A model generated the notes under the pieces. The model saw only the letters and a list, made by a program, of their open reading frames with translations, was not told the DNA's origin and ran no database searches. The translations under genes and the position numbers were made by a program. A stretch of 64,000 bases of DNA from Puniceicoccaceae bacterium (GTDB lineage: Bacteria; Verrucomicrobiota; Verrucomicrobiia; Opitutales; Coraliomargaritaceae): the NCBI GenBank assembly GCA_902587165.1, contig CACIKF010000003.1:1-64000 (forward strand), written 5' to 3'. This document shows, piece after piece, positions 13,364-41,286 of the stretch (position 1 is its first letter; every line of letters starts with the position of its first letter).

Positions 13364-15121
13364 ATGTCCTCGATTCGCATATTATCTGACCGGGTCGCCA
13401 ACCAAATCGCTGCTGGCGAAGTAATTGAGCGCCCTGTCGCTGTGGTCAAAGAGCTCGTCGAGAATAGTATCGATGCAGGTGCCACACGGATCGAGGTCGA
13501 GATTCGCAACGGTGGCAAATCTTACATTCGCATCGAGGACAACGGCAAGGGCATGAGCCCCGATGAAGCACTACTCTCGCTAGAACGCCACGCCACCAGC
13601 AAAATTCGCGAGGCGGCCGACCTAAACGTGGTTTCCAGCTTTGGCTTTCGCGGCGAAGCGCTACCCTCGATCGCGTCGGTCTCACGCTTTACCCTACGTA
13701 GTCGTGCTGAGGGCCGGGAACACGGCACCGAGATTAAAATTAATGGCGGCAAACTAATCGAAAAAAAAGACTGCGGCATGCCCGTCGGTACTGTGATTGA
13801 AGTCGCACAGCTATTTAACTCAGTACCTGCACGGCGCAAGTTCCTCAAGACTGATCCGACCGAGACCGCTCACATTAACTACAATACGCGGCTCTTTGCG
13901 GTGGCGCATCCCAGAGTCGCCTTCCGCGTGCTTGATAGTGGACGCACTATCTTCCAATCCCCCGCCTGCGAAGATCTGCGAGATCGCATAGCCGAGATCT
14001 GGGGGCGTAGCCTAGCTGACGATTTGATCTCCGTCGATGTGAGCGATCCCAAGACCGGATACCGATTGACTGGACTCACCGCCAAGCCAGGCGTCGGTCG
14101 TTCTACCCGCCGCGAACTTGTTACCCTAGTCAACCGCCGACCAGTCGACAGTCGCACACTCGGTTTCGCCGTGCTCGATGCTTATCATGGTCGCATCCAA
14201 AAAGGGCGTTATCCGCCTGCCTTTCTCTTTCTCGAAATCGAACCACAAGAGGTCGATGTCAACGTCCACCCCGCAAAGCGCGAGGTGCGTTTTCGAAACG
14301 ACGGCGCTATCCGTCGCTTTGTGCTCGGAGCAATCACCGACACCTTAGCGGCCGCGACCGTAGCCGAGCGCCCAAACGCGGAGTTAAGAGCGCCGGCAGC
14401 CAAAAATGAAATCAATCCCGTTCGACCTTCGAAACCTTCCGTCTCTCTAGGACCAATTTCAACGAAACCAAGAGCGGCCAAGACATCAACTGGGCCAAGA
14501 ATTACTGAATCACAAAAGCTGGCAGAACCTGCAAAAGTAAACACCACGTCATGGCGGCTGATCTCAATTTTGAAGAAGCAATACGGGCTCTTTGATACAC
14601 CGCGCGGACTCGTCATGCTGCACATCCGCTACGCCGACCAGCGAGTGCGTTTTGAGCGAATCTTGAAAAGCTACAAAGAAAGCGCGCCGCCAAGCCAAAG
14701 CCTACTCATCCCACAGGCCATCGAACTAGAACCGCTTGCCTCTGAGGCACTGCTCACGCACTTAGATTTGATCAACGAACAGGGCTTCCAAGTTGAAGAA
14801 TTCGGCCGTCATTTTTACCGCATAGAATCCTTACCCGCATGGCTAGAGCCAGAGCAAGCGGAAGATTTTATCCGCGACATGATCGACCTCCTCCGCCAGC
14901 GCGGAGAATCTCGCAAGCAAAGCGAACTCATTTGGGAATCGGTAGCCAAGCTAGCCGTCGGAGGCAGCTACCGCCTTAAGGACACTATGAGTGAGGCCGC
15001 CGTTCAGCAACTAGCCGAAACCCTAATCACTTGCGAGACACCTCATACCTCACCCTTCGGTAAGCCCACTTTTAACGAAATCACTTGGAGCGAATGGGAA
15101 CGCCGTTTTGGCAATGAATAA
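13364..15121 (+). CDS. mutL: DNA mismatch repair protein MutL
   Basis: MutL couples mismatch recognition by MutS to strand incision. The N-terminal GHKL ATPase is well conserved: [10 protein letters not shown], the ATP-binding Asn in [16 protein letters not shown], and [14 protein letters not shown]. The domain 2 signature [13 protein letters not shown] is at about residue 300. A Pro/Lys linker of about 50 residues leads to the dimerisation domain. There, the endonuclease motif DQHA(x)2E(x)4E is replaced by [13 protein letters not shown], starting near residue 420, and the Cys/His of the later zinc motifs are also missing. The start at 13364 matches the family N-terminus; an upstream in-frame ATG at 13316 adds 16 poor residues. 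Confidence 0.96.
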
Positions 15122-33259: not shown

Positions 33260-34096
33260 ATGCCACGCTACCAAAACACTTTTACTCTTTGCCTACTTTC
33301 ACTCTGGGGCCTTGGGCTTACAAACGGCTCCGATCTAGCCAGTAAACGCTTACTCAATATCGCAGAAAAAGAGACCCAAATCTACCAAAAGATCGCCGAA
33401 AACCCCGAGTTCTACAGCGAAGATGACCTAGACCGTAGAATTAACGAACTTGTTCAATCCTATCGCACCTACCTTCTTGATCAGCCCGACGATGTTAGTG
33501 CCTACATCCTTTACGGCAAACTACTGCGTCGAGTGCAGGAAAACGAGCAAGCCTTCCTCGCGTTTTTAAAAGCCGATGAGCTAGACCCCGAGATCGCCGT
33601 GGTCAAACAACAGATTGGTAACCACCTTGCAGAAGAGGGCAAAGGCAAAGCCGCCCTCACCTTTTATCTGCAGGCCGTCGAACTAGAGCCAGAGACCGCA
33701 GTCTATCACTTTGCTCTGGGTCAACTAATCTACAATTTCAAAGATGAATTCATAAAAAGCGGTGTTTTCACTCAAGATGCCTCAGAGCGAGAGATGCTGA
33801 AAGCCTTCCGCAAAGCGGCCAAGCTAGCGCCCAACAACTTTGACTATCAAATGCGACTCGGCGAGGCCTACTACGACCTCAACAGCCCTGACTGGAAAAA
33901 CGCCCTAATCCACTGGAAGCAAATGAGCAAGCAAGCCACTACCACTCTCCAAGTCGAAATCCTAGACCTCCACCGCGCCCGTGCGCTTGGCAAGCTCGGC
34001 CGCTCCGACGAAGCTAAGATTCTACTTGATAGAATCTTCAACCACGCGCTGCAAAATTCCAAACGACAAGTGCTCGAGGAGATAGCGGTTCACTGA
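33260..34096 (+). CDS. Tetratricopeptide-repeat protein, exported
   Basis: A 278-residue protein with a signal peptide (LCLLSLWGLGLTNG) and three to four TPR-like repeats, for example DVSAYILYGKLLRRVQENEQ and KAALTFYLQAVELEPETAVYH. It probably serves as a protein-protein scaffold in the periplasm. Divergent from the DtxR-family gene with about 135 bases between. The particular partner is not evident. Confidence 0.85.
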   Translation: MPRYQNTFTLCLLSLWGLGLTNGSDLASKRLLNIAEKETQIYQKIAENPEFYSEDDLDRRINELVQSYRTYLLDQPDDVSAYILYGKLLRRVQENEQAFLAFLKADELDPEIAVVKQQIGNHLAEEGKGKAALTFYLQAVELEPETAVYHFALGQLIYNFKDEFIKSGVFTQDASEREMLKAFRKAAKLAPNNFDYQMRLGEAYYDLNSPDWKNALIHWKQMSKQATTTLQVEILDLHRARALGKLGRSDEAKILLDRIFNHALQNSKRQVLEEIAVH

Positions 34097-35211: not shown

Positions 35212-38732
<3,521 letters not shown>

Positions 38733-38850
38733 CAAATGATAAGTTGACCAAATGATCGAAGCCTTGCAAGCGGATCGCGCTATGCCTTTTTGACCCAATC
38801 TTATCAACAAAGCGATACATAGTTGATCTAACGATTTATGCGGTCCGATC

Positions 38851-38903: not shown

Positions 38904-40833
38904 TTAATGGGCTAAATAGGTATGGCCACTCAGTAGTTTGACGTATTCGTCGAGCATGCGAGTACCTTCACGAGGCTTAATCTGGTCGTCTTTAGTGGCA
39001 CGGTCTATAATCTTCTTCATACGGCGGGTGAGTATATGGCCGTCGTATTGAGTGAAACCGATAACGTCATTCACAGTGAAGCCCTTGATACTATCTTCAA
39101 TGTAAAAGCCATCCTCTTCGTCGTCTTCAAGGAAGACGTGGACTTCATTCACACGGCCAAACAAGTTGTGCAAGTCACCCATTATATCCTGATACGCACC
39201 AACCAAAAATACGCCAAGGTAGTAAGGCTCTTTAGACTTTAACTTGTGCAAACGAATGGTGTGACGGATATCTTCTACATCAGTAAAGCTAGATACTTTA
39301 CCCTCGCTGTCGCAAGTAATATCAACGAGTGTGGCATCCACATCGGGCGACTCATCGAGGCGTTGCAGTGGTGCGATCGGGAAGAGCTGCTTGCACGCCC
39401 AATGGTCGATCAACGATTGAAAAATAGAAAAGTTGCAGACGTATTGTTCCGCCATCGTCTGTGGCAGGTTTTCCAGTTCTTCTGGCGTGTAGACGCCGCT
39501 CTTAGCTTGGTCACAGAGTTGTTGGCAGATTGCCCAGTAGAGAGAGTCGACCTGCGCGCGTTCTGCTAGGTCGATGTAGCCGAGGCTAAAGAGACTGTTG
39601 GATTCTTCCTTTTTCTGTTGAGCATCGTGGTAACGCTCTAGAGGTGAGGAGCCGTGCTCATTATCTAGAATTGCCTGCAGGTCTCGTAGGACTGGATTTA
39701 CTTTTTTTCTTTTGGGCGCAGGCTTGGGCGGAACGGAAGTTTTAGAGATTCGGTCGCAGACCTCGGTGATTAAAATGGAGTGTGGAGCGACGACCGCACG
39801 ACCACTTTCGGTCACAATGTCAGGCACGTCGATCCCAGAATCTTGGCAGACAGTTTTAATATTATAAACCACATCACGCGCATACTCACGCATCGTATAA
39901 TTCATAGAGCTTTCGTAATTACTTCGGGAACCATCGTAATCGATACCGAGCCCCCCACCGACATCCATCAGCTCCATAGGAAAGCCCATTTTCTTGATTC
40001 CACAGTAGAAGCGTGCGGCTTCTACTGTGGCTTTTTTTTATGGTCTGGATATTGGGTACTTGTGACCCGATGTGGAAATGAATAAGGCGTAAGCTCTCAG
40101 TTAGCCCGACACGCTTTAGGCGCTTAGCCGCATCGATAATTTCGGGACTGGTGAGGCCAAACTTCGCATCCTCACCCGAAGAACTCGCCCACTTACCCTC
40201 GCCCATCGTGGAAAGCTTTATCCGGAAACCGATGCGCGGTATGACACCGAGCAGCTTTGATATCTGGATGATGCGTGGCACTTCGCTAATTTGCTCGACC
40301 ACAAGGTAGATTTCTTTGCCCAGACGCAAACCTTGGAGCGCGAGGCGAATAAATTCGTCGTCTTTGTAGCCGTTACAAATAATCAAAGCTTTGGGGTCTT
40401 TGTGCATGGCAAGCGCGAGCATCAGCTCTGGCTTACTACCGCATTCTAGGCCGTAATGGAATGGCTCGCCCGCATCTTGTATCTCTTCGACCACTTCGCG
40501 CAGCTGGTTGACCTTGATTGGGAAAACGCCGCGATAGCGACCTGCGTAATTTTCGTCTTTTATCGCTTCGCGGAAAAGTTCGTTTAGATCGATCACACGC
40601 GTATGCAAGAGGTCTTGGATACGTATGGTAAGCGGTGGCTTTAGCCCCTTCTGTGCGGCTTCTTCGACGATATCATGGATACGAATACAACGCTGGTCAC
40701 GCAATGGATGCACTTGCATAAAACCTTTGGAATCAATCGAGAAATAACCGCCACCCCATCGCTTGAGACCATAGTAATCCTCCGAATCTTTGACTGACCA
40801 ATTAGGTATACCGCTCTTGTATGGTGATGACAT
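38904..40833 (-). pseudogene. speA: Biosynthetic arginine decarboxylase, interrupted by a +1 frameshift
   Basis: SpeA makes agmatine from arginine with pyridoxal phosphate. The upstream part (40833 to about 40040) holds the PLP barrel: FPIKVNQLREV with the PLP Lys, and LRLIHFHIGSQVP. The downstream part has LMDVGGGLGIDYDGS and later EVCDRISK, up to the usual short C-terminus. The break is at eight As (complement of 40032-40039): with seven, the text reads TIKKATVEAARFYCGIKKMG, in full agreement with the family. A perfect 12-bp hairpin (40000-40011 with 40019-40030) starts two bases after this run in the mRNA. Total corrected length is about 640 residues. Confidence 0.92.
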
Positions 40834-40905: not shown

Positions 40906-41286
40906 CTAAATAATCCCAGCGTAAGCGTCTGCTTTAAGGAGCGCTACGACTTGAGAGGGGTCGGTCAGACGAATCTTCAAAAGCCATCCCTTTTGATAAG
41001 GGTCACTGTTGAGCAGTTCCGGTTCAGCATCTACCTCGTCGTTGACCTCAAGGACTTCAGCGTCTAGCGGCATGTAGAGATCCGATGCAGCTTTGACCGA
41101 TTCGACAACACCGAAAGTGTCTCCCCTTTTTAAAGATTCTCCCGCCAAGGGAAACTCGACAAAGGTTATATCGCCCAGACTCTCCTGTGCGTAATCAGTA
41201 ATGCCGACGGTGGCCGTGCTGTCTTCGTGGAGCTGAATCCACTCGTGATCCTTAGTGTAGAGTAGTGCTTCGGGTACCTGGCTCAT
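40906..41286 (-). CDS. gcvH: Glycine cleavage system H protein
   Basis: GcvH carries the aminomethyl group on lipoyl-lysine between the P, T and L proteins. The 126 residues have the lipoylation site in GVVESVKAASDLYMP (Lys65). Also conserved are TKDHEWI at the start and KGWLLKI near the end. No gcvP or gcvT is nearby. It is closely followed by the PEGA lipoprotein gene's upstream end on the same strand, with the H gene downstream of it by about 30 bases. Confidence 0.95.
   Translation of the reverse strand: MSQVPEALLYTKDHEWIQLHEDSTATVGITDYAQESLGDITFVEFPLAGESLKRGDTFGVVESVKAASDLYMPLDAEVLEVNDEVDAEPELLNSDPYQKGWLLKIRLTDPSQVVALLKADAYAGII

Follow-up and report, generated by a model that had tools for sequence, protein, structure and literature searches.

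A split arginine decarboxylase gene (speA) beside a homopolymer and a perfect hairpin in a Puniceicoccaceae genome: probable artefact rather than recoding

In quasipalindrome-associated template switching (Ripley; Lovett), an imperfect inverted repeat is perfected when one arm templates a base of the other (PMC7202029; PMC8794818). The arginine decarboxylase gene (speA) analysed here resembles this situation at one templated base, although its frame break is an adjacent, untemplated homopolymer insertion and the site may be a read artefact. Transcriptional slippage in dnaX of Thermus thermophilus (PMC5009743) likewise involves a long homopolymer within a gene; however, the run measures 9 there and 8 in speA, where it is not conserved and bears no sign of correction. 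The stem-loop-dependent slippage of a Roseiflexus IS (PMC5009743; Penno et al., 2015) shares with speA a stem-loop beside a slippage-prone run, whereas in the speA mRNA the stem follows the run on its 3' side and the terminator-like order appears on the antisense strand only. Homopolymer indel errors of assemblies, described as one-base insertions at long runs (PMC9262707; PMC4787001), resemble the breaks seen in the otherwise conserved speA and ftsH, although very few are found in the source assembly and one substitution accompanies the insertion in speA. Moreover, an association of Illumina errors with inverted repeats, and of insertions with homopolymers, has been described (PMC4787001).

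The gene lies in a stretch of 64,000 nucleotides (the window) from an assembly of 1.85 Mb in 28 contigs, 79% complete; the genomes nearest to it belong to the Puniceicoccaceae/Opitutales and were mostly assembled from metagenomes. The genes concerned are as follows:

40906-41286, minus strand: gcvH, intact, upstream of speA (ORFs and profiles)
38904-40833, minus strand: speA, biosynthetic arginine decarboxylase, in two frames (ORFs and NCBIfam profiles NF003763/TIGR01273)
37278-38810, minus strand: tilS, intact, between speA and ftsH (ORFs and profiles)
35212-37270, minus strand: ftsH, split by one extra base in G9 (complement of C9 at 36338-36346; ORFs, profiles and relatives)

As originally noted, speA is split by an extra A in a run of eight (40039-40032) into minus-strand ORFs of 304 aa (39919-40833) and 361 aa (38904-39989), and a shift of +1 (or -2) is needed to restore the frame. 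The two halves match positions 8-266 and 280-634 of the 636 positions of the NF003763/TIGR01273 profile, and the motifs of PLP-dependent decarboxylases (PIKVNQ, HIGSQ, GGGLGIDYDG and CDSEG) are all found across the two frames; taken together, the ORFs thus carry the whole-length profile match and the decarboxylase motifs that define the SpeA family. In the assembly (~79% complete), speA is the sole PF02784 locus detected, and no second speA or other fold-III decarboxylase that might relax selection was found there. Three features of the break site are relevant:

40032-40039, minus strand: A8 run, A7 in all close relatives (sequence and alignment of relatives)
40000-40030, minus strand: perfect 13-bp hairpin with its loop at 40013-40017, just 3' of A8 in the mRNA (sequence and RNA fold)
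40000, minus strand: A to G found in the window only, GAA to GGA, Glu to Gly (alignment of relatives)

The gene was searched for in genomes of the genus, family and order as well as in GTDB genomes, and was found in dozens of species; within the genus, the genomes compared belong to other species, and 80 GTDB arginine decarboxylase loci were read. In all 80 of these loci, and in every genus relative found, no run at this site exceeds A7 and the frame stays open through it. The four closest relatives (the ERR2098405 bin, ALOHA_ZT_54, FRAM18_bin340 and MED-G87) have A7, while distant ones mostly have shorter runs. The break is therefore private to the window, and the conserved frame break and shift site expected of recoding are absent, no relative having either an A8 or a break. 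Relatives had been proposed as a check on both A7 and the hairpin: they have A7, only the nearest of them share the hairpin, and the outcome speaks against recoding without separating an error from a private mutation. As a separate observation, speA of T3Sed10_256R1 contains an in-frame stop at about position 2930 of its own locus, after NYSME, unrelated to the break in the window.

The downstream half of speA, which is out of frame with the sole evident start, yields dN/dS values of about 0.10 in comparison with ALOHA_ZT_54 and of 0.06-0.07 with FRAM18 and MED-G87; the value of 0.57 obtained with ERR2098405 comes from three differences only and carries no information. The half is still under purifying selection (dN/dS about 0.1 or lower), which bears out the earlier view that the gene has not otherwise decayed, and since it is still constrained, the break must be either very recent or not real. 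Purifying selection elsewhere in the gene, with the change present in one assembly only, is the pattern expected of an error.

The hairpin begins immediately past the single G that follows the A8 run. It had been described as 12 bp with a 7-nt loop; its presence holds, but C40018 pairs with G40012, giving 13 bp and a 5-nt loop. For the local RNA the fold energy is -26 kcal/mol, whereas shuffled versions average -8.4 (z = -7.3). In 1.25 Mb of the genome there are about 12 perfect hairpins whose arms measure at least 12 and whose loops measure 3-8, once a masked stretch of N among 13 entries is set aside, and that of speA is the only one in a conserved ORF. It is restricted to the nearest relatives and is absent elsewhere in the genus, save for one partly wobble-paired version. 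The hairpin arises because, in the peptide T-V-E-A-A-R-F-Y-C, the codons of Thr-Val-Glu and Phe-Tyr-Cys are mutually complementary, the first three being the reverse complements of the last three (ACA/TGT, GTA/TAC, GAA/TTC). In most relatives that encode the same peptide with other codons, the long stem is not formed. When codons for this peptide were sampled at the usage of the source genome, a stem of at least 12 appeared in 0.02% of draws, which makes it rare and attainable by chance. Among 28 distinct sequences, no stem pair has changed on both sides, and stem pairing stands at 79.2% against 79.3% when the 3' letters are shuffled. The structure is thus neither conserved nor covarying, as a stimulatory structure for recoding would be. 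A selected RNA structure was rejected on this lack of covariation, the stem being a by-product of complementary codons. The hairpin is unusual, yet selection is unnecessary to account for its stem.

Position 40000 is A in all close relatives and G in the window only, and its codon is Glu or Gln in other Verrucomicrobiota homologues. The original statement that removal of one A leaves a fully family-like sequence therefore holds for most of the gene, the exception being Gly at this conserved Glu/Gln codon. Among the window-only differences in speA, 14 of 22 fall at third codon positions. The derived G complements the opposite arm, pairing with C40030 as the outermost C-G pair, so that the hairpin is one pair longer and the palindrome more perfect, as in quasipalindrome mutation. 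The two window-only changes, A8 and the G at 40000, thus stand one at each foot of the hairpin; given 21 window-only substitutions, the chance of a pairing letter at 40000 is roughly 0.4-0.7%, in a test framed post hoc. Such a signature of hairpin-templated change could equally be produced by fold-back copying during library preparation or sequencing.

A survey of 1.25 of the 1.85 Mb of the source genome (G000), with the ORFs of the relative FRAM18_bin340 (G011) as yardstick, gave 1066 conserved ORFs, of which 982 align over almost their whole length and 28 received a split flag. Most of these cases, when looked at closely, proved to be breaks on the G011 side, ORFs that are short or weakly conserved, or the ends of genes; G011 was rejected as sole yardstick, each split call being assessed at its own locus. 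Two clear breaks were left, speA (A8) and ftsH (G9), both in the window and each with one extra base. The ftsH break lies 3.7 kb from that of speA, and ftsH is intact in the relatives; in bacteria this gene is often essential or of great importance. In the reverse comparison, 97 ORFs of the source genome were flagged as split in G011 (L034-L038, L139-L156 and others), which suggests that the G011 assembly is frameshift-rich, with many indel errors.

The length of the run is itself ordinary, since A/T runs of exactly 8 occur 61 times in the 1.25 Mb. In addition, 27 other A/T runs of at least 8 lie in frame within conserved ORFs (1.25 Mb, against G011), so that an A8 alone neither breaks a frame nor demands correction in this genome; a genome-wide tolerance of slippage was rejected on the same count. 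The longest G/C run of the surveyed 1.25 Mb is a C10 (G000:C1:111578-111587), located outside the ORF stretches aligned to the relative. Open frames were found for both mutS and mutL, and a mutator arising through lost mismatch repair is unsupported, as the two genes look intact. Within the intact mutL, an A8 at 13761-13768 lies in frame and may make this mismatch-repair gene prone to slippage.

A sequencing or assembly artefact at a difficult site is, in our judgement, the probable cause of the split speA. A strong hairpin adjoining a homopolymer would be hard to sequence or assemble; the consensus may have gained an extra A in the run and, at the other foot, an erroneous G for A templated by the hairpin, and the true speA of the organism would be ordinary and intact. 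This explanation accords with the A7, the GAA at the mirror position and the intact frame of all close relatives, with a substitution that is exactly the one lengthening the stem by one pair, with the constraint on the downstream half of the sole PF02784 locus found in the assembly, and with the absence of any mutator sign while mutS and mutL appear intact. The splitting of a second housekeeping gene nearby, ftsH at G9, points the same way. An error is favoured because of this second homopolymer break and because speA shows no decay. Against it stand an otherwise good assembly, with two clear homopolymer breaks among roughly 980 near-full-length ORFs (against G011), the 27 long A/T runs that remain in frame, and the A to G change, for which a plain homopolymer miscall offers no explanation. 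We infer that raw reads would support neither A8 nor the G at 40000. New biology is probably unnecessary: a hairpin that arose by accident next to a homopolymer, together with an artefactual frame break, would account for the locus.

A real, recent and private mutation, by which the sequenced cell or strain has lost speA function and carries a pseudogene in the making, is a possible but less likely explanation. A template switch in the quasipalindrome during replication would account for the A to G change, a single copied base, and slippage of the polymerase by one in the adjoining A7 for the insertion. The substitution perfects the hairpin in the manner of known template-switch mutations (PMC7202029; PMC8794818), and the two changes occupy the two feet of a single hairpin, a coincidence of low chance by the post hoc estimate given above. 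This reading is kept open because the assembly is otherwise clean, nearly without such breaks, and because the substitution looks templated. The hairpin, however, offers no template for the inserted A, speA is otherwise without decay, the mismatch-repair genes appear intact, and a near-simultaneous loss of ftsH would also be required. The simplest explanation put forward at the outset, a sequencing error, is thus preferred here, with the private mutation retained as a tentative second.

Programmed transcriptional slippage at A8, or ribosomal frameshifting promoted by the 3' hairpin, would yield full-length SpeA, and we consider either highly improbable. The combination of a homopolymer and a 3' hairpin does have the architecture of recoding signals, and bacterial polymerases slip efficiently on A/T runs of 9 (PMC5009743). 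Nevertheless, no relative has the frame break, the hairpin is without two-sided pair changes, and the shift needed is +1 (or -2), whereas A-rich slippery sites followed by a stem-loop give -1. Known stem-loop-dependent slippage has its stem 5' of the run (PMC5009743), whereas here it is 3'; furthermore, the other 27 runs stand uncorrected in conserved ORFs, and the Glu to Gly change would be left unexplained. The recoding or slippage initially entertained for this site consequently finds no support, relatives having runs of at most A7 in frame and a hairpin limited to the nearest of them, without covariation. A narrower version, in which the A8 run and the completed stem truly exist in the organism and arose lately, while slippage by RNA polymerase supplies the cell with sufficient full-length arginine decarboxylase, would mean that a hairpin-templated mutation had recently given a single lineage a new gene dependent on slippage; it is scarcely more than conceivable.

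A selected antisense intrinsic terminator inside speA merits the least credence: the hairpin, C and T8 (U8 in the RNA) of the plus strand, seen earlier, are real and make a strong terminator-like match, and a near-perfect hairpin with T7 is common to the closest relatives, but no plus-strand gene lies just upstream, the genes just below the site all being on the minus strand back to a plus-strand gene ending at 34096, two synonymous changes in MED-G87 keep G-U pairs in the speA mRNA but produce A-C mismatches in the antisense RNA, and most of the genus has no such hairpin.

The locus illustrates how a split gene with a homopolymer and a hairpin can mimic a recoding signal while its relatives show none. 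Before recoding is called at such a site, the opposite foot of the hairpin should be checked for a templated change, along with nearby homopolymer breaks and the conservation of the run itself. Should the two changes prove real, speA of this organism would neatly show how a hairpin within a coding gene can become more perfect through a mutation that it templates itself.
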